The translations under genes were made by a program, and so were the position numbers. The notes below the pieces were generated by a model. The model worked only from the letters and a program-made list of their open reading frames with translations, was not told the origin of the DNA and made no database searches. Positions 6,180 to 27,621 of a stretch of 64,000 nt of DNA are shown here, piece after piece (within the stretch, counting starts at the first letter, position 1; every line of letters starts with the position of its first letter). Origin of the DNA: Corynebacterium kalidii (lineage in GTDB: Bacteria > Actinomycetota > Actinomycetes > Mycobacteriales > Mycobacteriaceae); assembly GCF_022869005.1 (NCBI RefSeq), contig NZ_JALIEA010000011.1, positions 124,001 through 188,000 on the forward strand. Direction: 5' to 3'.

Positions 6180-7793
6180 TCACGCCTCGGGCGACGACGC
6201 AGGACGCTGGAGCGACTGGTCCTTCTTGCTCACCTTGCCCACGCCGGTCACGGGGAACTCGTCGACGATGTCGATCACGTCCGGGACCGCGAAGCTGGCC
6301 AGGCCCTGTCCCCGGGCGTACCTCTTCAACGCCGTGGGCTTCAGGGGGCCGGGGGCGCCGTCCCGGGGGATGACCAGGGCACGGACCTTCTCGCCGAGCA
6401 ACTCGTCGGGCATCCCGACGACGGAGACGTCGTGGACACCGGGGTGGGTGAGCAGGACGTTCTCCACGGCCTCGGGGGCGACCTTCTCCCCACCGCGGTT
6501 GATCTGGTCCTTCGCCCGGCCCACCACGGTGAGGACGCCGTCGACGAAGGTCACGATGTCACCGGTGCGGTAGAAGCCCTCGGCGGTGAACGACCGGGCG
6601 TTGACCTCGGGCGCACGGTGGTACTGGCGGATGGTGTACGGCCCGCGGGTGAGCAGCGCGCCCGGTGTGCCCGGCGGCACCTCGTTGTCGTCCTCGTCGA
6701 CGACGAGCACTTCGTCGTAGGGGCTCATGGGGCGGCCCTGGGTGGCGACGACCTCGGCGACGTCGGCGTCCAACGGGGTGTAGTTGACCAGCCCTTCCGC
6801 CATGCCGAAGACCTGCTGGAGGTTCCAGCCGAGCTCGGGGCGCACGCGACGGGCCGCAGCCTCGGAGAGTTTCGCCCCACCGACCCACACCGTGCGGACA
6901 CTGCCGAGGTCGTGGGCGGCACGGTCGGGGTAGTTGAGCAGGCTGATCAGCGCCGGGGGAACCAGGGCGAGGTGGGTGACCCGGTGCTCCTCGATGAGCG
7001 GCAGGATCTCGGTCGGCAGCGGCCCCGGGGCGAAGACGACGGTCGCACCGACCTGCACGGCACCGAGGATCCCCGGCGAGCTCATCGTGAAGTTGTGGGA
7101 CGCGGGCAGGGCGACGAGGAGGACGTCGTCGGCGCGCAGGTCGCAGACGTCCACGGAGGCGCGGACGGAGTACAGGTAGTCGTCGTGGGTCCGGGGGATC
7201 AGTTTCGGCACTCCCGTTGTGCCCCCGGAGAGCTGCAGGAACGCCAGTTCCTCCGGTGCTCCCGGGGTCTCGGGCGAGGGGCCGTCCGCCGGCCAGGGCT
7301 CCACGGCCCGGTCGTCGACGAGCACGGTGGTCAGCGTCCGTCCGTCGGGCAGTGGACGGGCGAGGTCGGCCTGCACCCGGCCCAGGTGCTTGTTCGGGTG
7401 GGCGGTGCCGATGTAGTGGGTGGCCGGGGCGTGGGCGGCGAAGTGGCGGATGTCGGTGGCACCGTGGGCGGGGAGGGAGAACACCGGGACGGCCCCGATC
7501 CGCCAGAGTGCGAAGACCGTCTCGAGGTAGGCCACGCTGTTGGGCAACTGCACGATGGCGCGGTCGCCACGGCGGATGCCGGCCCGGGTCAGGACGGCGG
7601 CGGCGCGGGCGACGGTGTCGTCCAGTTCTGCCCAGGTCAGTGAGCGTACGGCGTCGACGGCGGCAGGCGCGTGCGGCCGTGCCTCGACGGTGCGTCGGAA
7701 GAGCTTCCAGTGGGTGTCGCCGTTCCACACACCCAGACGGCGGTAGTGCTCTGCGGCGTCGTGGCTGAATCCGTTGGGGAGGGTGTCGGTCAT
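6180..7793 (-). CDS. aryl-acid adenylating enzyme, 2,3-dihydroxybenzoate-AMP ligase type (EntE/DhbE/MbtA family)
   Basis: This enzyme activates an aromatic acid with ATP and loads it on an aryl carrier protein, the first step of catecholate or phenolate siderophore assembly. The 537 residues show the ANL core: [10 protein letters not shown] near 186, the aryl-binding H-N-F-T-M-S-S-P-G near 232-240, [11 protein letters not shown] near 328, Y-R-T-G-D, and a C-terminal Lys in G-V-G-K-V near 516. In the DhbE scheme the Ser in S-S-P-G and the Val in G-L-V favour 2,3-dihydroxybenzoate, whereas Cys and Leu mark salicylate enzymes; the Phe after H-N is more salicylate-like. It overlaps the NRPS gene by 4 bp (ATGA), so the two are one operon. 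Confidence 0.88.
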
Positions 7794-10700
7794 GGCTGTG
7801 GTTCCTCTGTGCTGGTCAGGGCGGAGTGGATGACGGGGGCGATGTGTGCCCAGCCGTCGTCGCCGGTCAGTCCGGCGTGGGTGGTGGGCAGGAACAGGAC
7901 GTCCGGCTCATGGGGGAGCGTGTTGCGCCAGGCGGGCGCCGGCGCCCAGACGGGGTGGCCGGCCGGGCCGGCCGGCTCGGCGAGGCGGCTGTCGGCGCGG
8001 GTGGCGACGAAGACCTGGGCCTTCCCGGAGAACCCCGACATGTCCACCGGTGTCGCGGTCCGGAGCAACCGGTCGCAGAACTGCAGGTTCCTGGTGAGCA
8101 GCCCGGCATCGGCGTCGGTCCCGGTGAGGGCCCGGAGTTCGTCCGCAGTGAGCCCGACGGCCGGGTCGGTGTCTCGGTCGGCGCCTGGGGCGGCCGCTCT
8201 GCGTGGCGCCTCCCCGGCGGGGTAGGCGTCCATGATGCCGAGGTAGGTCACGGTGTGGCCCCGGCGGATCAGCTCTGCGGTCATCGCCTGGGCGACGACG
8301 CCGCCGAAGGAGTAGCCGAGCAGGCGGTACGGGCCCTGTGGATGGACCCTGAGCACGGTGTCGACGTAGCGGGCGGCCAGGCCGGACACGTCGTCGACCT
8401 GCGGCAGTGCACCGGGCAACTGCAGGCCGGTGACGGGGATGCCGCCTTCGTCAGCCGCACTGAGGTGCGTGGCCAGACCGCGGAACGGCAGCGCGAGCCC
8501 GCCGGCGGGGTGGACGCAGACCAGCGGAGCGCCGGTGCCGGCGGCCAACGGCAGGACGTCCTGACCGGGGGAGACGTCAGGGGCGTCCGAGCCATGCACG
8601 TCATCCGGGGCGTCGGGTGCTCCCGGGGCCAGTCGTGCGGCCAGGGCGGCCGGCGAGCCGGTCTCGACGATGTCCTGGATGGTGACGGCCTCCAGACCGT
8701 GTGCCCGGAGCCGCCGGAGCTTCCCGAGCAGCCGCATGGCGAGCAGTGAGTGTCCGCCGATGTCGAAGAAGTTGTCGTGCACGTCGACCTCCCCGCGCCC
8801 GAGGAGGTCGGCCATGACCCCGGCGATCGTCGCGGCGGTCGCCCCGGCTGCAGTGGCTGGCGCAGTGTCGGCACCTGTGTCGGCCGCATCGCCTGACGCT
8901 CCGGCGACGGCGCCCGCATCGTCGGTGCCGGTCGGTGCGACCTGGGTGGGACGCCACGGCGGGGTCACTGCGGCGACGGCGTCGAGTACCTCGCCGACCG
9001 TCGTCGCCGGCCCGTCGGACAGGTGGGTGAGCACCTGGGTCAGGATTTGCGCCGCACGCTCGACGAACGCCGGGTCGACCAGGGCCTGCTCGTGCGCCAG
9101 CAGGATCCGCGGGGTGTCACCGGGCGGGACGACGACGGAGAGCGGGATGTCGGTCGTGCCGGCGGAGTGGACCCCGGCGACGGCCAGACGTGCCGGGTCG
9201 TCACCGCCGGTGGCGTCGTCGAGCGGCGGGAAGTTGTCGTAGACCACGAGGGTGTCGAAGAGGGGACCGACCCCGGCGAGTTGTTCGACGTGCACCAGCG
9301 GGGTCGAGGCGTGTGCGGTCATCTCCGCCTGGGCCCGGCGGATGCCGGTGAGCAGGTCGGTGAGCGGGTCGGCACGGTGTAGCCGGACGCGGGAGGGCAG
9401 GGTGTTGATGAACAGGCCGACGGTGTTCTCGATGCCCTCGAGTTCGGTGGGGCGACCGGAGACCGTGGTGCCGAAGACGATGTCGTCGCGCCCGGTCAGC
9501 GCCGCGAGGGTGAGTGTCCAGGCGGTCTGCAGCACGGTGTTGGGGGTGACCCCGTCCTGCCGGGCTCGTCGCAGCAGACCGGCCGCGGCGTCCGGGGCGA
9601 TCTCCTGCACGGATTCGCCGCCGACCGCATCAGCTGCGGCGTCGGGTGCGGCCGGCGGGGCCAGGGCAGCGACCACGGTCCCCTGGTCGAGTCCGTCCAG
9701 CCGTGAGCGCCAGGCGTCGTCGGCGTCGCGGGGGTCCCGGGCGGCGAGCCAGCGGAGGTAGTCGGAGTACGGCGTGACGGGCGGAAGGGGCTCGTCGTGG
9801 TAGATCGCCAGTAGGTCGCGGAGCATCACCGGGGTGGACCAACCGTCGGTGAGCAGGTGGTGGCTGCCGAGCACCAGGCGTGCCGTCGGCGCGGGGCCCG
9901 CCTCGTCCGGCAGCAGCACCAGGGTGGCGGTGACCAGTGGTCCGGTGCCGGGGTCGACGGAGCGTGCGGCGGTCTGACGCAGCAGGTCGTCCGCTGCGGT
10001 GACGGCGGCGTGGCGGGGCAGCTCCCGGAGGTCGACGGTGCGCCAGGGCAGGGTGACGCTGCGGGGGATCAGCTGGACCGGGGCGTCGCAGGTGGTGCTG
10101 TCGAAGCGGGCACGCAGCAGGTCGTGGCGGGTGAGCACGTCGTGCAACGCCGCATGCAGCCGTTCGGGGTCGACGTCGCCGCGCAGGTCCACACCCGCGG
10201 CGAGCACGTAGCCGTCGCCGCCGCGGAGGCAGTGGTAGAGCATCCCTTCCTGGAGGGGTGACAGGGGTAGCACGTCAGCCAGTGGCCCGTGGTGCCGCTC
10301 CCAGGTGTCGATGGTGGCCTGCGAGACCCCGCCGACCCCGTCGACCCCGTCGACCCCGTCGACCCCGTCGATATGGAGGTCGGACGGGGAGGCTCCGCCG
10401 TCGGTGCTCAGCGACAGCATCGCCAGTGCGGTGGCGGCGTCGGTGATCCGGTGCAGCAGGGCGTCTGACCCGCTGGCCCCGTCGCAGGCCCCGTCGCTGT
10501 CTCCGTCGCCGGTGTCAGCTGCCGTGGTGAGCGCGAGTCCGGTGTCGCCGACGGTCAGCAGCGGGCAGGCCGCGGCGTGGCCGTGCGGGACCATCCGGGT
10601 GTCCCCGCAGGTCACGGTCACCGCAGGCGGCGGGGTCGCGCCGCCTTCCACATCGCCGTCCGTACCGGTGCCGGCGGTGCTGCCGGTGGTGGTAGCGGCG

Positions 10701-13700
10701 TCAGTACGGGCACGGTGCTCCTTGGCGTGCAGGAGGGCGGTCCGGGCGGAGGCCGGCGCTGTGCCCGGGAGCGCGGGGACGTGGCGGACGGAGCTGAGTG
10801 CACCGACCGGGGTGGTCGACGTGGTGCCGGACGGGCCGCGTCGCCCACGGGTGATCAGGTCGACGGGACCGCCGGTCGCCAGCAGGGCGATCGCGACAGC
10901 GGCGTCCTCGGCCGTCGCCGAGTACAGCGTGACGAGTCGGGTGAGGGTATCCGGGTGTCCTGGCAGGGGTGCCCGGCGGGTCCGGGCCGGTGTGGAGGTC
11001 ACGTGCCGGGGTGCCGGTGCCCCGGACCGCCACGAGTGCCCGGTACCGGCCGCCGCCCGGTCACGGGGGCGGCTGCGTCCCGGGAGGTCGTCGGCGAGGG
11101 TGCCGGTGAGGATCCCGGAGAGGTCGTCGAGGATCCGTGCGGCGGAGGCGGCGTCGGCCACGCCTGCGTCGACGGCCACCCGGACGGTGGCTCCGTGGTC
11201 GTGCCCGTCTGACCCGGTGGAGACCGCGATGCGCCACACCACGCCGGCCGTCGGGTCGAGCGACGCGGTGAGTTCGTCGTCGGTGACGGTAGCGGGTGCG
11301 ATGAACGACTCCGCCGGGACGAGGGGAACCCGGGGGACGATGAACCGTGGGTTTGCCCGGTCAGTTCGGTCACTCTCGTCGAGGACGGACCGGAGGGCAC
11401 CGTGGGTGTTCATCAGGGTGGTGACGGCGTGTGCCACGGCAGCGGCCTCCGGTGTGGCGTCGCCGGGGACGCCTAGATGCCCGAGATAGGTCGGCCGGGG
11501 ACCGGTGACGGTACCGGTCGGCACGGCACCGGTGGCGTAACGCAGAGTCTGGTCGGGATCGGTGCCGGTGTCCGGTGTGGTGCCGGCACTGGTCGTGCTC
11601 AGATACCCGGTGGCGGCGACCCGTGTGGCGCCGGCGGCGACATCACACAGGTCGACGCCGGTGAGCAGGTCCTTCGCCTGGATCGCCCAGCCACTCCGGC
11701 GGAGCCGTCCTGCGGCGGTGAGGGCGCCGATACTGTCACCGCCGAGGGCGATGAAGTCCCGTCCCAGGTCGACCGTGGTGGTGTCCGGGGCGCCGAGGAC
11801 GTCGGCGACGACGTCGGCCAGCGCCTGTTCGGCGTCGGTGACCGGACGCCGTCCCGGGGCTCCGGCGGCGTTGGGCTGCTCGGCCGGGTGGGGTGGTTCG
11901 GCGGCGAGTGCGGCCAGGGCCGTGCGGTCGACCTTCGCGCCGACGGTGAGGGGAAGCCGGTCGTGCACCAGCACCCGGGTGGGGACGAGGTGGCCCGGCA
12001 CCAGGGCCGCGAGCTCGGTACGCAGTGCTGCCCCGGTCACTGACCCGGAACCTGTCCCGGAGTCGGTGGTCACGTGTGCGACGAGTCTGAGCGCGCCGGG
12101 TTCGCCGACGGTCGCGACGGCGGCGCCGGTGACCCGGGGCAGGGTGAGCAGGGCCGCCTCGACCTCGGCGGGTTCCACCCGGTGGCCGCGGATCTCCAGC
12201 TGCTCGTCGGCACGGCCGCGGAAATGGTGGGCGCCGCGGCCCGTCCCGTGCGGCGAGGGGACCCAGGTGACAAGGTCGCCGGTGCGGTAGCGACGGGTGC
12301 CGCCGGTGCCGTCGGTGCCGCCGGTGCTGTCGAAGGCGGCGGCGGTCTGGTCGGGGCGGCCGTGGTAGCCGAGGGCCACCTGGGGGCCGGACAGGTACAG
12401 CTCGCCGGTCTCGTTTTCGGGGACGGTCTCGCCGTCGGTGTCGAGGATCTCGGCGGTCATCCCGGGGACAGGGGTGCCGATGGTCACCGGGCCGGCGGTG
12501 ACACGGGCGGACAGTGCGTCGACGGTGGTTTCGGTGGGGCCGTAGACGTTCCACGCCGCGAACGACGGTCCCGACGCCTGCGCGAGACGGTCCCACAGCG
12601 ACCGGGGTACGGCTTCCCCTCCCAGGATCACGGTTGATACGGGTGACTCATCGAGCACCCCGGCGTCGATCAGGGCACCTGCCAGTGACGGTGTGGCGTC
12701 GAGGACGTCGATCCCGTCGTCGATGAGCGCGGCACGCATCGAGGCGGGGTCACCGACCGTGTCGGTGGGGTAGAGGTGCACGGTCGCGCCGGTGAACACC
12801 CAGGACAGCTGGTCGATCGCCGCGTCGAAGGAGAACGACGCGGTGTGGGCGACATGCAGGCCGGTGCCGCGTGCCCGTGACCACGTATCCGGGTAGAGGG
12901 TGGTGTGGTGCCCGGCGAGCAGGGCCTCGACGGCGGTACGGGGGACCCGGACCCCTTTGGGTGTTCCGGTCGTCCCCGAGGTGTACAGCAGGTACGCCAG
13001 GCCCTCGGGCACCGGGGCGCCGGAACCCGGTGAGGGCACCGGCCGGACGCCGTCCTCGTCGAGGACGGCGACGGCCCCGGAGTCGGCGAGGATCTGGTCG
13101 CGCCGGGCCTGCGGGTGGTCACGGTCGAGGACGACCGCCACGCGGTGGGACCGCCAGACGCCCAGGAGCGCGGCCGCGAGGTCGGGGCCCTTCGGCAGGT
13201 CCAGGGCGATGACGTCGTCGGTCCGGGACCGGCCGGTGACCAGCGCGGCGAATTCGCCGATGCGGGTGGCCAGTGCCGGTCCGGCGAGGTCGGGTGCGGT
13301 GCCGCCGACGAGGCGTCCGGTGCCGTACGCCAGGCTGTCGACGAGGTCGTCGAGGCCCGGGTAGTCGTCGGGCAGGGGAGCTCCGGCACGCTCCCGGGCG
13401 GCGGTGGCCCGCTCCTGCGGGGTGCGTAGCCGGATGCCGTGCAACGGCCCCTCGGCGGTGAGCAGTGCGCGGATGTCCTCGAGCCGTCGGCGTGCGGTCG
13501 TGGCGTCCACGCTCTGCGGGTCGGTCTCGAAGGCGAGGTCCACACCGCCGTCGGACGTCGGGGTGACGACCAGGACGAGGTCTTCCGGAGGTCCGCCGGC
13601 GACATTGCGCAGCACCCCGGGGATGCCGTGGAAGTCGAGGCCGACGTCGAAGGTCTTCAGGTTGAGTCCGACGCCGTGCAGGACGGCCGGGGTGCCGAGT

Positions 13701-14815
13701 TCGCGGGCGAGCTCACTGCCGGGGAAGCGCTGGTGTCCCCGGGCGGCGTCGAGGGCGTCACGGGCCACGCCGGCGAGGTCGGTGACCGTGGCGTCGGCGT
13801 CGACGGGGAACCGCAGCGGCAGCATGTTGACCAGCATCGCCGGGGTGCGGCGTAATGCCCCGGAGGTCCGGGCCATCATCGGCATGGCGATCAGCGCCTC
13901 GCAGTCGCGGCCCGTGCTTCCCCCGCCTGTGCTGCCGGTGCCGCCCCTGCCGGCGATGCCGAGTTTGCGCAGCCAGGCGGCGTAGGCGGCGACGACGATG
14001 TCGGACCACACCAGTCCCCGGCGCTCTGCGCGGGCCTGGAGGGCCCCGACCTCGGAGGCCCCGAGACGCACGGAGGTGGTGATGCTCGCGGTGCCGGCAC
14101 CGTGGACGAGGTCCTCGCGTCCGGTGGTGTCCGGCAGCGGGTACATCTGCGCGCGCCAGAAGTCCCGGTCCGCCGCGTGGTCGGGGCCCTCGCGGTAGGC
14201 GCGGTCGGCGTCGACGATCTCGGCGATGGTGGCGAACCGGTTGCGCCGGGCGGGCTTCCCGCCGGTGAGGGCGGTGTAGTGCGCGGCGGTGCGTCTGGTC
14301 AGCAGCGCGGCGCTGTAACCGTCGACGATGATGTGGTGGTACAGCTGTATGCACCAGACCTCGCCGGGTTCGCCGTTGTGGCTGGCGCCGAGGTCGAGGA
14401 CGAGGTACCGGAACAGGGGCCCGTCGGTCATGGTGCGCCAGCGTTCACCGCAGGCGGCTTTCTCCGCGTCGATGATGGCCTCGGCGGTGAGACGGGGGTC
14501 GGGTGCCCCGGACAGGTCGACGATTTCGGGGGGTGAGGCCGGGGCCGGGTCGACGTACTGGCGTGGGCCGTCGGCCCCGTCGGTGAAGCGCAGCCGCAGC
14601 GTCTCCGCCTCGTCGACGGTCAACCGGACGGCCTCGGCGAGTGCGGCCGTGTCCACCCCCGGCCCCGCGCCGGGCCGGCCCGTGGGGCCACCGCGGAGCT
14701 GGAGAACCTCGCCCACGACGTAGTAGGGCGACGTCGGGTCGAGTCGCTGGGCGTTCCAGATGCCGAGCTGTGCCGCGGTGAGGGGGAGGAGTGACGGGGA
14801 CGACTGGGGCGACAC
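7790..14815 (-). CDS. dimodular nonribosomal peptide synthetase with degenerate E domain and A-less second module (C-A-T-E*-C-T-TE)
   Basis: 2341 residues; a siderophore-type assembly line. C1 has Y-H-H-I-I-V-D-G near 159-165 and an EntF/DhbF-like N-terminus. A1 spans about 480-970, with Y-T-S-G-T-T-G-T-P-K-G near 608, F-D-A-A-I-D in core A4 and Y-G-P-T-E-T-T near 757. T1 has L-G-G-D-S-I near 1023, the form that normally precedes an epimerase. An E-like domain (about 1085-1480) has D-A-G-V-A-D where the catalytic H-H-x-x-x-D should be. C2 has S-H-H-L-L-T-D-G-W-S near 1651. T2 has I-G-G-H-S-L near 2022. The thioesterase has G-Y-S-F-G-G near 2167 and a His in T-H-A-G near 2310. No A domain lies between C2 and T2. 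Reading the pocket by hand gives an A1 code of roughly D-A-D-D-I-G-V-V-D, suggesting a polar or basic substrate; this is tentative. It is divergent from the aryl carrier gene and preceded by a DtxR-like box. Confidence 0.92.
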   Translation of the reverse strand: MSPQSSPSLLPLTAAQLGIWNAQRLDPTSPYYVVGEVLQLRGGPTGRPGAGPGVDTAALAEAVRLTVDEAETLRLRFTDGADGPRQYVDPAPASPPEIVDLSGAPDPRLTAEAIIDAEKAACGERWRTMTDGPLFRYLVLDLGASHNGEPGEVWCIQLYHHIIVDGYSAALLTRRTAAHYTALTGGKPARRNRFATIAEIVDADRAYREGPDHAADRDFWRAQMYPLPDTTGREDLVHGAGTASITTSVRLGASEVGALQARAERRGLVWSDIVVAAYAAWLRKLGIAGRGGTGSTGGGSTGRDCEALIAMPMMARTSGALRRTPAMLVNMLPLRFPVDADATVTDLAGVARDALDAARGHQRFPGSELARELGTPAVLHGVGLNLKTFDVGLDFHGIPGVLRNVAGGPPEDLVLVVTPTSDGGVDLAFETDPQSVDATTARRRLEDIRALLTAEGPLHGIRLRTPQERATAARERAGAPLPDDYPGLDDLVDSLAYGTGRLVGGTAPDLAGPALATRIGEFAALVTGRSRTDDVIALDLPKGPDLAAALLGVWRSHRVAVVLDRDHPQARRDQILADSGAVAVLDEDGVRPVPSPGSGAPVPEGLAYLLYTSGTTGTPKGVRVPRTAVEALLAGHHTTLYPDTWSRARGTGLHVAHTASFSFDAAIDQLSWVFTGATVHLYPTDTVGDPASMRAALIDDGIDVLDATPSLAGALIDAGVLDESPVSTVILGGEAVPRSLWDRLAQASGPSFAAWNVYGPTETTVDALSARVTAGPVTIGTPVPGMTAEILDTDGETVPENETGELYLSGPQVALGYHGRPDQTAAAFDSTGGTDGTGGTRRYRTGDLVTWVPSPHGTGRGAHHFRGRADEQLEIRGHRVEPAEVEAALLTLPRVTGAAVATVGEPGALRLVAHVTTDSGTGSGSVTGAALRTELAALVPGHLVPTRVLVHDRLPLTVGAKVDRTALAALAAEPPHPAEQPNAAGAPGRRPVTDAEQALADVVADVLGAPDTTTVDLGRDFIALGGDSIGALTAAGRLRRSGWAIQAKDLLTGVDLCDVAAGATRVAATGYLSTTSAGTTPDTGTDPDQTLRYATGAVPTGTVTGPRPTYLGHLGVPGDATPEAAAVAHAVTTLMNTHGALRSVLDESDRTDRANPRFIVPRVPLVPAESFIAPATVTDDELTASLDPTAGVVWRIAVSTGSDGHDHGATVRVAVDAGVADAASAARILDDLSGILTGTLADDLPGRSRPRDRAAAGTGHSWRSGAPAPRHVTSTPARTRRAPLPGHPDTLTRLVTLYSATAEDAAVAIALLATGGPVDLITRGRRGPSGTTSTTPVGALSSVRHVPALPGTAPASARTALLHAKEHRARTDAATTTGSTAGTGTDGDVEGGATPPPAVTVTCGDTRMVPHGHAAACPLLTVGDTGLALTTAADTGDGDSDGACDGASGSDALLHRITDAATALAMLSLSTDGGASPSDLHIDGVDGVDGVDGVGGVSQATIDTWERHHGPLADVLPLSPLQEGMLYHCLRGGDGYVLAAGVDLRGDVDPERLHAALHDVLTRHDLLRARFDSTTCDAPVQLIPRSVTLPWRTVDLRELPRHAAVTAADDLLRQTAARSVDPGTGPLVTATLVLLPDEAGPAPTARLVLGSHHLLTDGWSTPVMLRDLLAIYHDEPLPPVTPYSDYLRWLAARDPRDADDAWRSRLDGLDQGTVVAALAPPAAPDAAADAVGGESVQEIAPDAAAGLLRRARQDGVTPNTVLQTAWTLTLAALTGRDDIVFGTTVSGRPTELEGIENTVGLFINTLPSRVRLHRADPLTDLLTGIRRAQAEMTAHASTPLVHVEQLAGVGPLFDTLVVYDNFPPLDDATGGDDPARLAVAGVHSAGTTDIPLSVVVPPGDTPRILLAHEQALVDPAFVERAAQILTQVLTHLSDGPATTVGEVLDAVAAVTPPWRPTQVAPTGTDDAGAVAGASGDAADTGADTAPATAAGATAATIAGVMADLLGRGEVDVHDNFFDIGGHSLLAMRLLGKLRRLRAHGLEAVTIQDIVETGSPAALAARLAPGAPDAPDDVHGSDAPDVSPGQDVLPLAAGTGAPLVCVHPAGGLALPFRGLATHLSAADEGGIPVTGLQLPGALPQVDDVSGLAARYVDTVLRVHPQGPYRLLGYSFGGVVAQAMTAELIRRGHTVTYLGIMDAYPAGEAPRRAAAPGADRDTDPAVGLTADELRALTGTDADAGLLTRNLQFCDRLLRTATPVDMSGFSGKAQVFVATRADSRLAEPAGPAGHPVWAPAPAWRNTLPHEPDVLFLPTTHAGLTGDDGWAHIAPVIHSALTSTEEPQP
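10325..10370. repeat. 9-bp tandem repeat inside the NRPS gene
   Basis: Five adjacent copies of GACCCCG(T/C)C encode a V-D-G repeat on the - strand. It lies in the linker between the degenerate E domain and C2, so it looks like a flexible, length-variable hinge. Confidence 0.85.
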
Positions 14816-14928: not shown

Positions 14929-15228
14929 ATGGCTGACATCACCGGTACGACGGACGAGACAGCGGCGGACGAGACAGGCGAGGCCCGGGTGGACGCCACG
15001 ATGCGGCGACTGCTCGCCCGGGTGGCCGAGCTGCTGAACACCGACGTGTCCGACATCGACACCGACGAGGAGCTCATGGACCAGGGGCTGGACTCGGTCC
15101 GCCTCGTGGAGATCGTGACGTTCCTGCGCAGGGAAGGTTTCGACGCGGACTTCGCCGACCTGGCCGAGGACAGCTCCGTCGACGCCTGGCGCGAACTGCT
15201 CGTCGACCAGCTCGCCGACGGGCTCTAG
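14929..15228 (+). CDS. free-standing aryl carrier protein (ArCP)
   Basis: A 99-residue acyl-carrier-type protein. The phosphopantetheine site is Ser56 in Q-G-L-D-S-V-R-L, the form seen in the aryl carrier part of EntB/DhbB. An acidic helix typical of carriers (D-T-D-E-E-L-M-D) precedes it, and about 20 disordered residues lead in. No isochorismatase domain is attached, unlike EntB. It most likely carries the aryl group loaded by the adenylating enzyme at 6180-7793 and offers it to C1 of the NRPS. It is divergent from the NRPS and convergent with the free-standing A domain, 3 bp away. Confidence 0.88.
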   Translation: MADITGTTDETAADETGEARVDATMRRLLARVAELLNTDVSDIDTDEELMDQGLDSVRLVEIVTFLRREGFDADFADLAEDSSVDAWRELLVDQLADGL

Positions 15229-15231
15229 GCG

Positions 15232-16998
15232 TCAGGGCCCGCCGGGCCCACCGGCGAGGGCCTTGAGCGCGGCGCGGTCGAGCTTCCCGTTGGGGCTCAC
15301 CGGCAGTGCGTTCAGCTCCAGGATCCGGCTGGGCACCATGTACTCGGGCACCTGGCGGGCCAGCCGGGCGCTGAGCTCCGCGACATCGACACCTGCGCTG
15401 ACACCTGCGCTGACACCTGCGCTGACACCTGCGCTGACACCTGCGCCGGCACCTGCGCCCGTGCCGACGACGAACGCGACGAGGGTGCCCGTGTCGTCGG
15501 CGACGGCGGCGGCCATGCGCACCCCGTCGAGATCACGGAGCCGGGACTCCACCTCGCCGAGTTCGACACGGTTGCCGCGGATCTTCACCTGGTCGCCGAT
15601 ACGTCCCAGGAACTGCAGCAGCCGGGTGCCGTCGACCTCCGTCCAGGCCACGATGTCGCCGGTGCGGTACATGCGTCCGCCGTCCACGTCCGGCCGCGGC
15701 GAGTCCACGAAGACCTCGTCGGTGAGCTCCGGGCGGCCGGCATAGCCGTTGCCCACCTGCGGGCCGGAGACGCACAGCTCGCCGGGCCGGTCCCACCGGT
15801 CGGAGGCCGGGTCGACCTCGTCGCCGTCCTCGTCGATGACGTACACGCCCACGTTGTCCTCCGGCAGGCCGAGCAGACTGGCGCGGTCGTCGAAGTCGGG
15901 TGCGCCGACGAGGGCGTCGGTGTACTCCACCCAGGTGACGTCCATCGCCGCCTCCGTCGGGCCGTACAGCCCGTGGACACGGCAACCGATCCCGTCCCGT
16001 GCGCGGCGCACGACGTCGGCCGGGACGGCTTCACCGCCGAGCAGGAGATGCCGGATCCCCGACAGGGACGACAGGGGCGTGCCGATGTCGTCGAGGACGT
16101 CGAGCAGGACCCGCATCAACGACGGCACCATCGACAGGACGGTCACCCCGTGGCAGGAGATCATCTCCACCATGGCGTCGACGTCGCCTGGCCACCAGTC
16201 CGGCCCCGGGACCACGGTCGTGCCGCCGGTGGACAACGGGCCGAGGAGTTCGGCCACGCCGACGTCGAAACTGACCGGGGCCTTCTGGAGCATCCTGATC
16301 TCCCCGGAGTCCCCGGTGTCGGCGGTGTCCCCGGTTTCCCTGAGGACCCGGCCCATCCACTGCAGGTGCGCGCACACCCCGAGGTGGGTGTTCAGCGCGC
16401 CCTTGGGGGTTCCGGTGGTGCCGGAGGTGTAGATCAGGTAGCAGTCGTCGGTCGGGAGGACCGGGCGGGACAGGTCGCCCGGCCTGAAACCCGGCCCGTC
16501 CTCCGACAGGAACGCCCGCCCCAGCGGGGAATCGTCGGTGACCGTCCCGCCCACCGGCGGAGTCGCGAGGTCGGTCGCCGCGGGCAGTGACGCGCCGCCG
16601 AGGGCGAAGGCGGCGGCCGGGTCACAGTCCTCCAGGATGAAACGGACGCGTTCGGGCGGGTACGAGGCGTCGACCGGCACGTAGACGGCGCCGGCCCGGA
16701 TGACGCCGACGGCGACCACCGGCAGCCACCCGCACCGGTGGGCCAGCACGACCACACGGTCACCGGTGCCGATGCCCTGTGCGCGCAGGTACCGGGCGAC
16801 GGCGCTGGAGCGGCGGTCCAGCTCGGCGTAGCTGAGCGTCCCGCCGTCGCCGACCACGGCGGGACGTCCACCCCCGCCGGTGACCGTGCGGTGGAGCAGC
16901 ACGTCCAGCGTGGTCGGCTCGATCGGGGCGGCCGGGCCGAAGCGCAGGTCGCCGGGGCAACCGGTGTAGAAGGACGTCGCGGTGTCGGGTGCGGTCAC
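15232..16998 (-). CDS. free-standing NRPS adenylation protein
   Basis: A 588-residue amino-acid adenylation protein with no carrier or condensation domain. Motifs are Y-T-S-G-T-T-G-T-P-K-G near 189, F-D-V-G-V-A-E near 241, Y-G-P-T-E-A-A near 345, Y-R-T-G-D, and N-G-K-L-D-R near the end. Hand-read pocket residues are about D-V-A-S-L-G-L-M-D, partly like serine-type codes; the substrate is uncertain. Because the NRPS has a C-T module without an A domain, the obvious role is to load T2 in trans. It overlaps the monooxygenase gene at 16995 by 4 bp. A Val-Ser-Ala-Gly repeat is inserted in the C-terminal subdomain. Confidence 0.88.
   Translation of the reverse strand: MTAPDTATSFYTGCPGDLRFGPAAPIEPTTLDVLLHRTVTGGGGRPAVVGDGGTLSYAELDRRSSAVARYLRAQGIGTGDRVVVLAHRCGWLPVVAVGVIRAGAVYVPVDASYPPERVRFILEDCDPAAAFALGGASLPAATDLATPPVGGTVTDDSPLGRAFLSEDGPGFRPGDLSRPVLPTDDCYLIYTSGTTGTPKGALNTHLGVCAHLQWMGRVLRETGDTADTGDSGEIRMLQKAPVSFDVGVAELLGPLSTGGTTVVPGPDWWPGDVDAMVEMISCHGVTVLSMVPSLMRVLLDVLDDIGTPLSSLSGIRHLLLGGEAVPADVVRRARDGIGCRVHGLYGPTEAAMDVTWVEYTDALVGAPDFDDRASLLGLPEDNVGVYVIDEDGDEVDPASDRWDRPGELCVSGPQVGNGYAGRPELTDEVFVDSPRPDVDGGRMYRTGDIVAWTEVDGTRLLQFLGRIGDQVKIRGNRVELGEVESRLRDLDGVRMAAAVADDTGTLVAFVVGTGAGAGAGVSAGVSAGVSAGVSAGVDVAELSARLARQVPEYMVPSRILELNALPVSPNGKLDRAALKALAGGPGGP
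15388..15459. repeat. 12-bp tandem repeat in the free-standing A domain gene
   Basis: Six copies of a 12-bp unit (GACACCTGCGCT; the last two slightly diverged) encode the repeat G-V-S-A on the - strand. It falls in a surface loop of the small C-terminal subdomain. The frame is kept, so copy-number change would alter loop length only. Confidence 0.9.
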
Positions 16999-18368
16999 AG
17001 GAGGGTCCTTTCGGGACGGGAGGGGGAGTGTCGCAGGTCGTCCGGGGCCGGTGCCGCCCCGGCACCGAGTCCGGCGAGGACGCGGTCGGAGAGTTCACCG
17101 AGGCAGCTGAGGTTGGCCATGCCGGGACCCTGGGCCATGCCGGCGAGGGTGGGGAGGAACAGCGTCGGGGACATCCCGGACAGCGACAGGTCCGGGCCGA
17201 TCCGGTCCTCGACGGTGGCGGGGGTCACCGCCCCGCCGCAGGCCCCGATGAGCCGGGCGACGACGCGGTCGTCCATCATGCGGGTGAACCACAGCGGGGA
17301 GTTGCCGCGGGCGTCGACGACGAGGTCGACGACCTCCGTCCGGTGGCCGATGTGCAGCTCGGCCAGGCCGTCGCGGTCGTGGACGGCGTTGACCCGGCCG
17401 CGGAGGTGGCTGACGCGGTCCTCGGCCATGAGTTTCTCCTGGACCTGGGTGGAGAACACGCCGCGGTCGCAGCGGGTGACCACGTCCCGGCGGGCGTCGT
17501 CGTCCAGGTCCGTCCAGAGCCGGGGGTCGGTGTAGAGCTCGTTCTCGAAGGGGCCCTCGGCCCGGGTGAAGATCGTGGGGGTGGGGGACACCACGGCGAT
17601 GTCGACGACGTCGTGGGTGATGAGCTCCTCGACGACGCTCGCGGCGGTCTCGCCGCCGCCGATGACCGCCACCCGCGACGCCGTGGGCAGCTGTGCCGAG
17701 GACACCGCCTGCCAGAACCCGGCCACCGAGTAGATGGTGGGCAACGGGGCGATCCGCCGGTCGGAGCGTCCGGGGCCGGTCATCATCAGGGTGTCGGCCT
17801 CCAGCGACGAGGTGGTCCCGTCGATCCGGTCGACGGTCAGCGACCAGCCGTCCGGGTCGTCTGCCCCGCGCAGCCCGATATGCGTGACCTGGCCGTTGAC
17901 CAGGGTCATACCCGTCGTCTCCGCCGCCCAGCGCAGGTAGTCCGCCCACAGGTAGTGCCGGGGGTTGGGGTGGCCGTGGTCGACCCACCAGGCGTAGCGG
18001 TCGGTGTCGACGAGGAACCTGGTCCACCCGATGTCCAGCAGTGCCCGGTCGACGGCCCGGTTCGCCCCGGTGCCACCGGCGATCCGGGTGCGGTAGGGGA
18101 ACCCGATGTCCTTGGTGGGGGAGGTTCCCAGCTGGTGGCGGCCGTCGGTCCAGCCACCGCCGGAACGCCAGTTGCCGCCGACGCCCTGGTGGTCGACGAC
18201 GGTGACCGTCGGCGCAGGGAGGCCCAGGGTGCGCAGGGCGTGGGCCTTGGCGTGGACGGCGACGGCCTTGGGGCCGGCGCCCAGGACGACGAGCGAGGGG
18301 GAGAGTGGGGTCGGCGACGGATGCGGCACGGTGAGGGGTGCTCCTGTGATTCGGTGGTGCGCGGACAC
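16995..18368 (-). CDS. MbtG-like L-lysine (or ornithine) N-monooxygenase, SidA/IucD/PvdA family
   Basis: This FAD/NADPH enzyme hydroxylates the side-chain amine of lysine or ornithine to build a hydroxamate iron ligand. The 457 residues closely track mycobacterial MbtG: V-L-G-A-G-P-K-A-V-A-V-H-A-K near 27-40 (FAD), G-V-G-G-N-W-R-S-G-G-G-W-T-D-G, then L-G-T-S-P-T-K-D-I-G-F-P-Y, V-I-G-G-G-E-T-A-A-S near 231 (NADPH), and near the end F-L-P-T-L-A-G-M-A-Q-G-P-G. Resemblance to MbtG rather than PvdA favours lysine, which is an inference. It is the first gene of a two-gene operon with the free-standing A domain and is divergent from the acyltransferase. Confidence 0.88.
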   Translation of the reverse strand: MSAHHRITGAPLTVPHPSPTPLSPSLVVLGAGPKAVAVHAKAHALRTLGLPAPTVTVVDHQGVGGNWRSGGGWTDGRHQLGTSPTKDIGFPYRTRIAGGTGANRAVDRALLDIGWTRFLVDTDRYAWWVDHGHPNPRHYLWADYLRWAAETTGMTLVNGQVTHIGLRGADDPDGWSLTVDRIDGTTSSLEADTLMMTGPGRSDRRIAPLPTIYSVAGFWQAVSSAQLPTASRVAVIGGGETAASVVEELITHDVVDIAVVSPTPTIFTRAEGPFENELYTDPRLWTDLDDDARRDVVTRCDRGVFSTQVQEKLMAEDRVSHLRGRVNAVHDRDGLAELHIGHRTEVVDLVVDARGNSPLWFTRMMDDRVVARLIGACGGAVTPATVEDRIGPDLSLSGMSPTLFLPTLAGMAQGPGMANLSCLGELSDRVLAGLGAGAAPAPDDLRHSPSRPERTLL

Positions 18369-18433: not shown

Positions 18434-18470
18434 GTACATGCTGCATGACCAGCAGGAGAGGGAAACACCC

Positions 18471-19175
18471 GTGACCGAGAAGAACACCCCCATGCCGGGA
18501 ACCCCGGACCTCAGCGTCCTGCACCGGCTGCGCACCGACGTCCCGGATAGCGGGGTCCTCGACACACCACCCCGGATCCCCGCGGAGTACCTGCAGGGCA
18601 CAGACGGGATCTCACTGCGCGTGGCCGACCCGGAGACCGACGCGGAGACGGTGTCGCGGTGGATGAACCGCCCGCACCTGGTCGAGACCTGGGACCAGGC
18701 CTGGAGCGCACCGGCCTGGGCCGCCGACTGGCGGGCGAAACTGTCGACCACCTACGCGGTGCCGTTGATCCTCAGCTACAGCGCCGACGGGGAGCGGCGG
18801 GACGTCGGCTACATGGAGATCTACCGCCCCCACCGCGACGAGATCGGCCTGGCGTACCGCTCCGAACCCCATGACCTCGGATTCCACGTCGCCGTCGGGG
18901 AACCCACGTTGACCGGCAAGGGCATCTTCGGCCCGTTCGTCGGTGCCTTCGCCCGGCACCTGCTGCACTCCGACCCCGCCTGCCGCCTGGTCATCGCTGA
19001 GCCGGACGTGACCAACCACCGGGTCCACCGGGTGCTCCACCGGGGTGGCGGCGTGGACGCCGGGCAGTGGCAGCAACGTGCCGACCGGCGCGTCCGGCTC
19101 TTCTTCTGGCCGGGCGCCGGCGTTGACCCGCTGTCCCGGCTGCACGGTGCCCCGGAGGACGGCGACCTGGCCTGA
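18471..19175 (+). CDS. siderophore N-acyltransferase, IucB/AlcB/MbtK (GNAT) family
   Basis: Enzymes of this family acylate the N-hydroxylated side chain of lysine or a diamine, completing the hydroxamate. The GTG at 18471 is chosen because AGGAGAGGG ends about 8 bp before it; the in-frame ATG at 18438 lacks a Shine-Dalgarno. The 234 residues contain G-I-S-L-R-V-A-D (about 44), W-M-N-R-P-H-L-V-E-T-W, G-Y-M-E-I-Y, G-L-A-Y, and the CoA-loop segment G-K-G-I-F-G-P. The C-terminal E-P-D-V-T-N-H-R-V-H-R-V-L is typical of the family. The acyl donor (acetyl, succinyl, long chain) cannot be told. Confidence 0.85.
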   Translation: MTEKNTPMPGTPDLSVLHRLRTDVPDSGVLDTPPRIPAEYLQGTDGISLRVADPETDAETVSRWMNRPHLVETWDQAWSAPAWAADWRAKLSTTYAVPLILSYSADGERRDVGYMEIYRPHRDEIGLAYRSEPHDLGFHVAVGEPTLTGKGIFGPFVGAFARHLLHSDPACRLVIAEPDVTNHRVHRVLHRGGGVDAGQWQQRADRRVRLFFWPGAGVDPLSRLHGAPEDGDLA

Positions 19176-19197
19176 TCAGCCTGACTGGCCTGACGTG

Positions 19198-20571
19198 TCA
19201 GCCGGTGATGAGCCTGCCGGTGACACCGCTGCCCACCCGCCCGGCCCTGCCGCCGGTGCTCTTCGGGTCGGTCACCCCGGGCAGGCGTACCAGGGTCGAG
19301 CCACCGGTGTGTTCCCGCTGCAGGCGCTTGGCCACCGCGAAACCGTTGACCTCGGGGAGCTGGGTCAGGTCGACGGTGACGTCCGGGGTGGCAGGGGTCC
19401 CTGCCGTGCCTGCGACGCCACGGAACAGGTTCCTCGCGCGCGCGTCCACGGGGTCCGGGGTGGCGTCCGGGGTGCTCTGCGGCAGCCCGGCGTCGATGAG
19501 CCGTGCCAGTGCCGCCAGGCTGACCAGCGTCTGTTCCAGGTGCGGCCACAGCAGGACACCGCCGGCACCGCCGCGTTCGTCGACGACGGTCACCCGGGCG
19601 AGCCGGTGCGTGCCCAGGATCACGTGCGGTACACCGTCGACGGGGCGGACCGGGCCGGACACCGAGACCTTCGCCGGACTGACCTCCACCGTCGCTCCGG
19701 TCGCCGTCGGCTCTGCCGGCTCTGCCAGCTCTGCCGGCTCTGTCGCCGTCTCGATTCCCCCGCGCAGTATGTCGCGGACCGACTCCAGCGTCTTCCGTAC
19801 CGCGGGACCTCCGGTCAGCAGTGCGTCGGTCAGGTCGACGTGCGGGGCGGGCACCGGGAGATCCCGGTCGAGTCGCCCGACGGTCCGGTCGTCGCCGGGG
19901 GACTGTGCCGGCGCGGCGTCCCGTGCCCGCAGGACCACCGGTGCGGCGGGGAGACCGGCGGCGGCACGTGCCAGCAGCACGGCGGCCACCAGGATCTCGC
20001 CGTGCCCGACCCCCAGCTGTGCCGGGAGCAGACGGAGCAGGGCGTCGGGGTCGCTGACGTCGAAGGTCTTGTAGGTCGACGGCCCGCCACCGGCGAACGG
20101 GGCGGGCGGGGCCGTCGCGGCCCGCCGTCCCCAGTCACCGCTGGGCTCGACGGGGGTGCCGTCGAGCAGCGACCTGGCGTCGTCCACCACCGTCGCCCAC
20201 GACGCGGCGTCGACGACACCGCGGTGCACGCACAGCAGCAGGCGGGTGTCCGAGAGTCTGCTGACCCGCCAGACCCGCCCGGTGGCCGGGTCCAGGGAGG
20301 ACGCCAGGGATCCGGGGCCGGTGCCGTCGGCCGCGATGACGTCGGTGGCGGGGACCGGGGCCTCGTCGGGGACAGTGACACTACAGCCAGTGCCGTCTGT
20401 GCCGTCACTGCCGTCACTGCCGTCGGTGGTGAGGATGGCGCGCAGCGCCCCGTGGGTGCCGGACAGGCCGTCGACGAGGGACCGCAGAGTGTCGTCCCCG
20501 ACAGGGCCGGTGGTGTCGAGTGCCGTCCAGTACACGGCGGAGGTCGGAACCGGTGGAACCCTGAAAGTCAT
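19198..20571 (-). CDS. free-standing epimerization/condensation-like domain, catalytic His lost
   Basis: At 457 residues it is the size of one E or C domain. The E-type motif H-H-x-V-V-D-G-x-S-W appears as H-R-G-V-V-D-A-A-S-W near 116-125, so the second, catalytic His is Arg. Further E-like features are V-G-R-L-D-R-D-L-P-V (core E4 region) and a K-T-F-D-V-S start of the second lobe. It shares T-H-G-A-L-R, S-L-D-P-x-x-G-x-V-W-R and V-x-D-A-A-S with the degenerate E domain inside the NRPS, so the two look paralogous. Catalysis is unlikely; a scaffold or interaction role is inferred. The start is the ATG at 20571. It follows the flavin reductase gene by 28 bp on the same strand. Confidence 0.75.
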   Translation of the reverse strand: MTFRVPPVPTSAVYWTALDTTGPVGDDTLRSLVDGLSGTHGALRAILTTDGSDGSDGTDGTGCSVTVPDEAPVPATDVIAADGTGPGSLASSLDPATGRVWRVSRLSDTRLLLCVHRGVVDAASWATVVDDARSLLDGTPVEPSGDWGRRAATAPPAPFAGGGPSTYKTFDVSDPDALLRLLPAQLGVGHGEILVAAVLLARAAAGLPAAPVVLRARDAAPAQSPGDDRTVGRLDRDLPVPAPHVDLTDALLTGGPAVRKTLESVRDILRGGIETATEPAELAEPAEPTATGATVEVSPAKVSVSGPVRPVDGVPHVILGTHRLARVTVVDERGGAGGVLLWPHLEQTLVSLAALARLIDAGLPQSTPDATPDPVDARARNLFRGVAGTAGTPATPDVTVDLTQLPEVNGFAVAKRLQREHTGGSTLVRLPGVTDPKSTGGRAGRVGSGVTGRLITG

Positions 20572-20599
20572 GCCTTGCAGGTTACCGGAGCGGTTCTCC

Positions 20600-21112
20600 T
20601 CAGAGTTCGCCGACGACCGCGACCTGCGACCCGTGGAAGACCAGTGGGGTCTCCGACGGGGCCTGCCCGTGGACGCGGTCGACACGCAGGACGGCGGTGG
20701 TGTGGTCACCGGTGTCGATCTCGTTGACGACCCGGCCGGTGAGGTGGGCCGCGGCGTCGTCGACGAGGACCGCGCCGCGGTCGCTGGTCCACCCGACGGT
20801 GTCGAAGCGGCTGTCGACCGGGCCGGCGAGTTGGCGGACGTGCCCGCGGTGGGCCCTGGTGAGTACCGAGATCCCCAGATGGTCGGCGGTGCGGAGCAGG
20901 GGCCAGGTCCGCGAGGTCTTCTGCACGCTCACCGCGACGAGGGCAGGTTCCAGCGACAGTCCCACATAGGAGCCGACGACGAGGCCGACGGGGCGGCCGT
21001 CGACGAGGGCGGCGACGGTGGTGATCGGGGTGGGGATCGAGGCCCAGGCGCTGCGCAGGGACAGCGGCGTCGGGGTGTGCTCGGGCGCGGTCTGGGTGGT
21101 CGCTGTGGTCAT
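20600..21112 (-). CDS. flavin reductase-like FMN-binding protein (HpaC type)
   Basis: The 170-residue product has the flavin reductase-like fold: V-A-A-L-V-D-G-R-P-V-G-L-V-V-G-S-Y-V-G-L-S-L-E-P-A-L-V-A-V-S-V overall pattern near residues 33-65 and a late D-H-T-T-A-V-L-R-V-D. Such proteins reduce FMN or FAD with NAD(P)H and hand it to a monooxygenase. The ATG at 21112 has AGGAGCTCC upstream. It may supply reduced flavin to iron release or act with an enzyme elsewhere; the partner is not evident. It is divergent from the MFS gene. Confidence 0.75.
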   Translation of the reverse strand: MTTATTQTAPEHTPTPLSLRSAWASIPTPITTVAALVDGRPVGLVVGSYVGLSLEPALVAVSVQKTSRTWPLLRTADHLGISVLTRAHRGHVRQLAGPVDSRFDTVGWTSDRGAVLVDDAAAHLTGRVVNEIDTGDHTTAVLRVDRVHGQAPSETPLVFHGSQVAVVGEL

Positions 21113-21395
21113 GGGGAGCTCCTGGGGTCGTCGTGGTGTGGTCCGGCACCACCGAGTAGACCATGCGGTCTGTCCGGTGGCGAGGATTCGGGATCGGGGT
21201 GAATGGAATTGCCGGCACAGCTCGTCCGCAGCTCGTCCCACCGCGTTCGCCAGTCGCCCGGAGTTTCCGGTCGGGCGGTCAGGGAGTAGGTTTGCAGGGG
21301 TTCTGGCGACGGGACCATGAGACGGGACGACAGCGGCACGACGACTGCAGGAAAGCTGCAGGACAGCTGCGGGACAGCGGAGGAGGATGGTAGGC

Positions 21396-22736
21396 GTGGC
21401 CGACAAGAGCCAGGCAGACGGCGGGACCGGTGACACGACGGACGGACGGCGGTCCGGGCGTGGAGGTCCGCGCCGGCGGACCTGGGGTGGGCCGGCGGTG
21501 CCGGTGGTCCTCGCGTTCGTCGCCGTCGCGGTCGCGGCGGTGAACCTGCGCGCCGGAATCGCCTCGCTCGGCCCGGTGCTGTCCGACGTCCTCGACGCCT
21601 TCGGTACCTCCAGCTCCTACGCCGGTCTGATCACGGCACTGCCGGGCGTGCTCTTCGGCGTGATGGGGTTGTGCGCGGTTCCGGTGGCGCGCCGCCTGGG
21701 GCTCAGCCGCACGATCGTCACCGGCATGGTCGTGTCGCTGGTGGGCCTGGCGGTACGTCCGTGGGTCGGGACGACCGCGGTGTTCATCGTGCTCACCGGC
21801 CTGGTCGTCGCCGGTATCGCACTGGGGAACGTGCTGATCCCGGCCTGGGTGAAGAACTACGGCGGGCGCCGGACGGTGGCGCTGATGACGGTCTACGGCG
21901 CCCTGCTCGGTGCGTCGGGCGCCGCCGGGCCGCTGTCCGCCCTGTGGTTCGACGGGGACGACGCCTGGAAGTGGACGCTGCTGGTGTGGGCGCTCCCGTG
22001 CCTGGTCCAGGTGCTGGTCTGGGTGCTCGTCGCCGTGCGTACCGGTGCGGACTTCCCCGGCGGCCGGAAGACCTCCACCGACGGTGACGCGATCCCCTCA
22101 CCGCTGCCCCAGCCGACCCCGGAGGAGGTGCAGGCACTGGCGCGGACCTCGCTCTGGCGTGCACCGACCGCGGTCTTCCTCACCCTGTTCTTCGGTATCC
22201 AGGCGATGAACGCCTACCTGCAGATGGGCTGGTTGCCGCAGATCTACGTGGACTCCGGGGTGTCCCGGGACGTGGGCAGCATCGCCCTGGCGTTGGTCGG
22301 CGGGCTGAACATCCTCGGCGGCATCGTGATGCCCACCGTCATCGACCGCGCCCGCAGTCTCGCCCCGTTCCCGGTCCTCTTCGCAGTCCTCACCGCCGCC
22401 GGCTACCTGGGGATCCTGCTCGCGCCGACAGCGGCACCCCTGGTGTGGGCGTTGATGCTCGGGTTGGGCGGCTTCTGCTTCCCGACGGCGATCGCCTTGA
22501 TCACCGCGCGCAGCAGGTCGTCGCTGGTGACCGCGCGGCTGTCCGGCTTCGTGCAGCCCATGGGATACTTCATCGCCGGTGTCGGCCCGTTCCTCATCGG
22601 CCTGGTTTACGGACGCACCGGTGACTGGACCGGGATCCTCGTGGCCCTGATCGCCGTCGCGGTGCTCATGGGGGTGCTCGGGGTGCGCGCCGGGAAGGAC
22701 ACCCTCATCGACGACGAGCTGCTCGCGGCACGCTGA
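21396..22736 (+). CDS. MFS transporter, CynX/NimT family
   Basis: A 446-residue membrane protein with about 12 predicted membrane segments, preceded by a 30-residue charged N-terminal tail. N-L-R-A-G-I-A-S-L-G-P-V-L in the first helix is a hallmark of the CynX/NimT group, whose members move cyanate or nitroimidazoles and many unknown solutes. The GTG at 21396 is preferred because GGAGG ends 9 bp before it; the ATG at 21387 directly abuts GGAGG. Its position next to the siderophore genes makes siderophore export possible, but this family is not the usual exporter type. Confidence 0.75.
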   Translation: MADKSQADGGTGDTTDGRRSGRGGPRRRTWGGPAVPVVLAFVAVAVAAVNLRAGIASLGPVLSDVLDAFGTSSSYAGLITALPGVLFGVMGLCAVPVARRLGLSRTIVTGMVVSLVGLAVRPWVGTTAVFIVLTGLVVAGIALGNVLIPAWVKNYGGRRTVALMTVYGALLGASGAAGPLSALWFDGDDAWKWTLLVWALPCLVQVLVWVLVAVRTGADFPGGRKTSTDGDAIPSPLPQPTPEEVQALARTSLWRAPTAVFLTLFFGIQAMNAYLQMGWLPQIYVDSGVSRDVGSIALALVGGLNILGGIVMPTVIDRARSLAPFPVLFAVLTAAGYLGILLAPTAAPLVWALMLGLGGFCFPTAIALITARSRSSLVTARLSGFVQPMGYFIAGVGPFLIGLVYGRTGDWTGILVALIAVAVLMGVLGVRAGKDTLIDDELLAAR

Positions 22737-27535: not shown

Positions 27536-27602
27536 CGGGCCCCTTTCACTCGTGGTGGACGAGCGTGGTGGCACAGGAAAACCCCTGCCGTCACGCTTGA
27601 GG

Positions 27603-27621
27603 ATAGGTTCACCTTAGATGG
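27603..27621 (+). promoter_or_regulatory. DtxR-like half-conserved box upstream of the importer operon
   Basis: ATAGGTTCACCTTAGATGG matches the DtxR consensus at 11 of 19 positions, with an intact AGGTTNNCCT core. It abuts a better box at 27621-27639, giving a tandem arrangement. Confidence 0.4.

Follow-up and report, generated by a model that had tools for sequence, protein, structure and literature searches.

What does a free-standing epimerization (E)-like protein without catalytic residues do beside a siderophore synthetase that carries a dead E-like domain of its own? The question is raised by a minus-strand gene, here called FREE, in a stretch of 64,000 nucleotides from Corynebacterium kalidii (the window). 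The first-pass annotation had described FREE as an inactive paralogue of the E-like domain within the non-ribosomal peptide synthetase (NRPS), and had proposed that both copies, one in cis and one in trans, were kept for a non-catalytic role such as docking of the monooxygenase, the acyltransferase or the free A domain. The features of the two proteins are listed here, with the basis of each in brackets.

19198–20571, minus strand: FREE, stand-alone E-like protein, catalytic residues lost (ORF, profile and tree)
20206–20226, minus strand: H-R-G-V-V-D-A, residues 116–122 of FREE, at the place of HHxxxDG (orthologue comparison)
19870–19887, minus strand: RTVGRL, residues 229–234 of FREE, where other E domains have TVGWFT (tree alignment set)
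19486–19701, minus strand: C-lobe core, FREE residues 291–362, the most constrained part (pN/pS)
19201–19386, minus strand: private C-terminal tail, FREE residues 396–457 (GVTDPK[SA]TGG...), past the E-domain homology (pN/pS; no Pfam match)
7790–14815, minus strand: siderophore NRPS, C-A-T-[E-like]-C-T-TE, 2341 aa (domain annotation)
about 10316–11590, minus strand: cis E-like domain of the NRPS, about residues 1076–1500, dead and fast-changing (motif, identity and pN/pS)
11153–11170, minus strand: D-A-G-V-A-D, NRPS residues 1216–1221, at the cis catalytic site (sequence)

Homology of FREE and the state of its catalytic site

The FREE reading frame runs from ATG to TGA and encodes 457 aa; its start is supported by a relative, G177, in which a stop codon lies just 5′ of the same ATG. 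An open frame of 560 aa at 19045–20727, antisense to FREE, is probably a by-product of high GC content. The shared motifs quoted in the first-pass annotation are all present, in FREE as THGALR (residues 39–44), SLDPATG (92–98), HRGVVDA (116–122) and DAAS (121–124), and in the NRPS as THGALR (from residue 1137), SLDPTAG (from 1185) and DAGVAD (1216–1221); much of what they share is common across the superfamily. All seven FREE genes found have Arg in place of the catalytic His of HHxxxD and read HRG[VI][VI]D there, and neither EGHG nor GYG occurs in any of the seven. FREE thus has none of the second His of HHxxxD, the Glu of EGHGRE and the Tyr of GYG that mark an active epimerase. The window NRPS has DAGVAD at the catalytic site and contains no EGHG, so that the proposed loss of catalytic residues in both copies is borne out. 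A split active epimerase, half in cis and half in trans, is excluded, since neither copy has the second His or EGHG.

Pairwise comparison of FREE with the window NRPS aligns 69 residues with 42% identity and an E-value of 9e-8, a value that applies to that single comparison. When a FREE profile was run with the default filters of HMMER against 22 long ORFs, only the NRPS of G119 was reported (5.7e-27) and that of the window was not. With the filters off, E and E-like domains scored 19–91 bits in 31 of 31 cases, all four C domains scored below 1 bit (maximum 0.7) and shuffled cis domains reached at most 6.5 bits among the matches listed (300 shuffles of each of three cis copies, 269–297 being listed for each). 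These filters-off scores, set against those of the shuffles and C domains, indicate that the relation between FREE and the cis domains is more than chance, and the separation of E-type from C domains excludes generic C-domain similarity as the sole explanation. Scores are 37.7 bits for the window cis copy and 54–91 bits for the four cis copies from genomes in which FREE was not found; three of the latter give the best scores of all (G119 91, G203 83 and G233 76 bits). At 38 bits, the window copy falls below several E domains from other genera, which reach up to 70 bits. The annotation had named assignment to an unrelated family as an outcome that would count against it; the profile searches place FREE among E domains, and at E≤10 with default filters none of the seven FREE members matched any Pfam family, Condensation (PF00668) included. 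NCBIfam gave no match at E≤0.01, and Pfam did not recognise the E-like stretch in the NRPS.

In a tree of 38 sequences, which took in 15 of the additional E domains retrieved and included no X-domains, FREE and the cis copies of the siderophore NRPS lineage form one clade (SH-aLRT/UFBoot 97.6/98), in support of the paralogy that had been claimed. Within it, the ten cis copies included group as the sister of FREE (96.1/99), and the 20 other E domains, 19 of which have HHxxxD, are split from the dead ones with support of 99.7/100. The cis copy of G162 was excluded from the trees and the pN/pS tables because of frameshifts, its motif being read from one frame, and G082 was left out as it offered no usable anchor. 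In topology tests, with constraint trees taken from fast searches, nesting of FREE with the cis copies of FREE-bearing genomes and nesting with those of FREE-less genomes each gave an AU p of 0.070 and neither was rejected at 5%; a recent duplication within the FREE-bearing clade is disfavoured, not rejected (AU p 0.07, KH p 0.051). The tests also leave standing (p 0.41 and 0.48) a grouping of FREE with intact E domains, which is the same split as that of the cis copies plus the G136 domain from all others. The G136 domain had joined the cis copies with support of 69.8/65 in a first tree of 23 sequences.

The predicted structure of FREE has a mean pLDDT of 50.7, although 10 of the 15 ten-residue blocks from residue 11 to 160 lie at 66–86. 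A Foldseek search with this low-confidence model returned at least 47 C/E-superfamily entries, judged by title, among the best 50 rows, with TM scores of about 0.2 and poor packing. The eight best matches of the same low-confidence model by Z-score are chains with E domains (Z 9.7–10.3, rmsd 14–17 Å, residues 1–369). Carnitine and choline acyltransferases follow at similar values (9.6 and below), so that the model supports the superfamily more than the subtype. The model of the cis copy, built from three sequences only (pLDDT 37.6), had no structural match at E≤0.001.

Distribution and selection of the two copies

The genes around FREE on the siderophore side are listed below; taken together, the gene set would make a mixed-type siderophore cluster.

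6180–7793, minus strand: EntE-like aryl-AMP ligase (annotation)
14929–15228, plus strand: free-standing carrier (T) protein, 99 aa, between the NRPS and free A genes (annotation)
15232–16998, minus strand: free-standing adenylation protein, presumed loader of the A-less second module (annotation)
16995–18368, minus strand: L-lysine monooxygenase-like hydroxylase (4d7e, E 9e-130, the sole solved relative found)
18438–19175, plus strand: GNAT acyltransferase, convergent with FREE, 22 bp apart (annotation)

The gene for the 99-aa carrier protein lies on the strand opposite to the NRPS and free A genes; this protein also occurs in relatives. No DtxR box was found in the window at three mismatches. 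Weak DtxR-like sites (14/19) occur in the hydroxylase–GNAT intergenic region and close to where the NRPS begins, and a site with 15/19 bases (27598–27616) lies just upstream of a FecCD-type permease gene.

FREE was found in 7 of 242 Corynebacterium genomes, with an open frame in each; eight further genomes match it only within NRPS frames. The siderophore NRPS lineage, marked by a hydroxylase orthologue of at least 73% identity (the next being 58%), occurs in 11 of the 242, and all seven FREE carriers fall within these 11 and none among the other 231. In G047 and G019, the NRPS genes are on a different contig from FREE, both being present. FREE was not found in the remaining four lineage genomes (G119, G216, G233 and G203). 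In three of the four, the gap between the SfnB and GNAT genes is contiguous and too small for FREE; the G203 genome is fragmented, and the absence there is less certain than in G119, G216 and G233. A scan of genome contigs gave five loci, all in Corynebacterium, and a plasmid search with FREE gave no match. Across the family, 131 of 401 genomes match FREE at E≤0.001, and among the matches listed none but the FREE of the window itself extends beyond profile position 284 of 438.

The occurrence of the H-R-x-x-x-D site is complementary. It is present in FREE in 7/7 cases and in the cis copies of all four FREE-less genomes, where it reads VHR[GS]VLD, and in none of the seven cis copies of FREE-bearing genomes; these read VDAG..D (window, G066, G163, G177 and, by a frame fragment, G162) or VDPLLRSP (G047 and G019). 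On parsimony, this pattern suggests that H-R-x-x-x-D was already present before FREE and the cis copies diverged, in which case a dead domain may have been duplicated and its conserved site then kept either in cis or in trans. Five distant Corynebacterium siderophore NRPSs (G122, G107, G240, G200 and G097) keep HHxxxD at the E domain, and the lineage is thus plausibly descended from active epimerases. The second C domain of the window NRPS retains SHHLLTDGWS and SPLQEG, sequences of a kind that C domains placed after an E domain would typically carry.

The weight of this pattern is limited. The tree separates the cis copies of FREE-bearing genomes from those of FREE-less genomes as two clades, and the presence and absence of FREE amounts to about one evolutionary contrast, not eleven independent events. 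Moreover, over 10.9 kb (L057 6397–17308 and L058 293–11198) G047 and G019 share 97% DNA identity in their NRPS genes, against 83–91% for the other stretches common to the two, part of FREE included, apart from one piece of 85 bp. This difference suggests recent transfer and weakens the weight of the two genomes for co-occurrence; an assembly effect would be the alternative. In G162 (L024), the NRPS and hydroxylase genes are broken into several frames, as pseudogenes or through sequencing errors, and FREE is intact.

FREE is under purifying selection that is strongest in the C-lobe and the private tail. Over seven pairs, pN/pS is 0.22–0.61 (window–G177 0.43, window–G163 0.43, G066–G163 0.29, G047–G019 0.31, window–G047 0.60, G163–G047 0.61 and G163–G162 0.22). 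The C-lobe core (residues 291–362) is the most constrained part at 0.06–0.24. The tail (396–457) comes second in most pairs at 0.19–0.48, with 0.76 in the very close pair G163–G162, and constraint is weaker in the N-lobe, which carries the H-R site, at 0.16–0.76. As pN/pS is lowest there, the conserved function seems to reside in the C-lobe and tail. The cis E-like domain has the lowest amino acid identity of the seven NRPS domains in all nine comparisons with the window. Its pN/pS for window–G177 is 0.59 (C1 0.33, C2 0.43, TE 0.59), and that of the cis region for window–G047 is 0.86. Rapid change of the cis region is seen in the FREE-less clade as well, where G233 paired with G203, G216 and G119 gives 0.53, 0.77 and 0.62, so the relaxation did not begin with FREE. 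The proposed non-catalytic role fits the selection on FREE; the idea that both copies were kept is supported for FREE but not for the cis copy, which has lost even H-R-x-x-x-D. Retention of FREE while the cis copy decays suggests a hand-over rather than two retained copies.

The organosulfur-type neighbourhood and the proposed role of FREE

On its upstream side, FREE adjoins genes of another kind.

20600–21112, minus strand: flavin reductase, 170 aa from the ATG at 21112, co-directional with FREE and 28 bp upstream of it (annotation)
21157–21172, no strand assigned: McbR-like operator TAGACCATGCGGTCTG, 9/10 consensus bases, 44 bp upstream of the flavin reductase ATG (consensus match)
21387–22736, plus strand: CynX/NimT-type MFS transporter, a leftover neighbour of the organosulfur-type cluster (annotation)

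The McbR consensus is given as TAGAC-N6-GTCTA in a passage of PMC2723105. Sites with at least nine matching bases are expected 0.47 times per 64 kb (30 mononucleotide shuffles), and similar sites precede the reductase orthologue in nine further genomes (G066, G162, G163, G019, G119, G216, G233, G203 and G120); judged by its consensus, the window site may act as an operator. None with at least nine bases was found in G177, where the contig starts near the reductase gene, or in G047, which has no flavin reductase at the FREE locus. In G119, G203, G120, G233 and G216, a second McbR-like site is found close to where the StyA-like gene begins.

In relatives, the cluster comprises a flavin reductase, an SfnG-like luciferase-type oxygenase, an SfnB-like acyl-CoA-dehydrogenase-type protein, NtaA-like and StyA-like proteins and an MFS transporter. 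The names SfnG, SfnB, NtaA, StyA and DszC-like are presumptive assignments; the Pfam families of the enzymes are only luciferase-like, acyl-CoA dehydrogenase-like, styrene-monooxygenase-like and flavin-reductase. The cluster adjoins siderophore genes or their transport genes in relatives, in several of them between rpsQ and rplN. In the window, 5768–29914 holds the siderophore genes and the remaining organosulfur-type genes as an insertion between rpsQ and rplN, the same place as in several relatives; of the five cluster enzymes only the flavin reductase is left, along with the MFS gene. No P450 is found among the annotated neighbours of FREE.

We favour the reading of FREE as a stand-alone pseudo-epimerase that would act as a non-catalytic trans partner of the siderophore assembly line, inheriting the role of the cis domain, and put the probability of this reading at about 45%. 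FREE would descend from an already inactive E-like domain of the siderophore NRPS lineage. The cis domain would no longer epimerize, its residual non-catalytic role having passed to FREE, which would act in trans on siderophore assembly. Most likely, the C-lobe and private tail would be the parts by which FREE binds partner proteins or intermediates tethered to carrier proteins, in the manner of the recruitment platforms formed by X-domains; its partner would be the NRPS or accessory proteins, and its role docking. In favour of this reading, all seven FREE genes occur in genomes of the NRPS lineage, and H-R-x-x-x-D is distributed in complementary fashion between FREE and the cis copies; G120, where the sulfur cluster occupies the equivalent position but that lineage is lacking, has no FREE. 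Against it, the reductase 28 bp upstream and the McbR-like operator make the transcription unit look sulfur-linked, and FREE is intact in G162 beside a frameshifted NRPS and hydroxylase. The single two-clade contrast, the nestings with cis copies left standing by the AU test and the failure of the default-filter profile to report the window NRPS also count against it. Occurrence favours the siderophore link and the apparent operon favours sulfur; the neighbourhood of FREE points as much to an organosulfur-type operon. None of the observations singles out the monooxygenase, the acyltransferase or the free A domain as the partner.

It is possible, though on balance unlikely, that FREE arose from the adjoining NRPS but has its present role in the organosulfur-type monooxygenase cluster, perhaps scaffolding two-component monooxygenases. 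The main argument is that FREE lies within such a cluster or its remnant in 7/7 genomes, against 5/7 beside siderophore biosynthesis genes; in G177 a run of genes on one strand, flavin reductase–SfnG–SfnB–FREE, ends with it, and the McbR-like operator stands before the flavin reductase in the window and nine genomes. FREE is nevertheless open in the two of its seven genomes that have no close SfnG-like orthologue (G000 and G047). Of the ten genomes with an SfnG of at least 76% identity five have FREE and five, G120 among them, do not. The G047 locus keeps only two SfnB-like pieces (L026 9022–9690) beside the intact FREE, with no flavin reductase, SfnG, NtaA or StyA, and of these five enzymes the window retains just the flavin reductase.

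The two lines of evidence could be combined in a fuller history, which we regard as improbable in its entirety. A dead NRPS domain would have escaped as a gene, assumed what was left of the cis parent's role (the parent itself decaying further), gained a tail and come under sulfur control, so coupling siderophore assembly to sulfur status. More doubtful again is a trans brake or decoy, in which FREE, made under sulfur limitation from an McbR-type operon, would occupy carrier or docking surfaces of the NRPS and tune siderophore production to sulfur. Homology does point to the NRPS and the apparent operon and operator to sulfur control, but the operator is a putative one, identified by its consensus, and in G047 FREE persists with neither the reductase at its locus nor a site of at least nine bases.

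There is a still slimmer chance that FREE has acquired a new catalytic activity at the H-R-x-x-x-D site. The H, R and D are invariant in the seven FREE proteins and the four FREE-less cis copies, but Arg stands in place of the general base, EGHG and GYG are missing throughout, and the strongest constraint is in the C-lobe rather than in the N-lobe that bears the site; as described in a passage of PMC6565677, matching motif changes inactivate the kistamicin X-domain and block its channel. Least probable of all is a functionless relic, which the narrow distribution and the four lineage genomes without a detected FREE (three with too small a gap) might suggest, but which the seven open frames, the pN/pS values for the whole protein and the C-lobe core, and the conserved tail oppose.

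Comparison with known systems

NRPS siderophore genes have been reported in C. variabile (passage of PMC3219685), and words starting in 'epimer' are absent from the main text of a survey of respiratory corynebacteria (PMC12188740). The literature searched, which comprised open-licence PMC papers, yielded no stand-alone dead E domain. FREE resembles the E domains of NRPSs (TycA-E, 2xhg; TycB3-E, 6ta8; GrsA PCP-E; PvdL-E2) in its sequence profile and in the top matches of its low-confidence model; it differs from them in being a separate protein, in having Arg for the catalytic His, in lacking EGHG and GYG and in its private C-terminal tail.

A dead E domain kept within an NRPS has a parallel in LgrA, for which an inactive cis E domain is described in a passage of PMC8150014; in this respect the window's cis copy is alike, and the presence of FREE is a difference, as that passage mentions no free-standing paralogue. 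The closest likeness to FREE itself is to the X-domains of glycopeptide NRPSs (4tx2, 6m7l). In the kistamicin X-domain, HHxxxDG is changed to HRxxxDE, and this C/E-type domain is inactive, has a blocked channel and binds an oxygenase, according to the same part of PMC6565677; FREE likewise has HRxxxD for HHxxxDG. Both X-domain structures are among the matches of the low-confidence FREE model (6m7l with Z 8.8, and 4tx2). X-domains, as a passage of PMC11546977 describes them, sit in cis in the synthetase and recruit P450 oxygenases, whereas FREE is a separate gene.

The interface domains of hydroxyaspartate siderophore NRPSs are non-catalytic members of the C superfamily that sit in cis and recruit a separate hydroxylase. 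FREE might be likened to them on this general description, with the difference that it is not in cis.

Inactive C/E-superfamily domains are thus already known as cis recruitment platforms, and, if the preferred reading of FREE as a trans partner of the siderophore assembly line is true, the non-catalytic roles of such domains can be handed to a separate protein. The genomes with FREE and those without it that keep the cis site offer a small, tractable genetic system in which the purpose of a dead E domain might be addressed.
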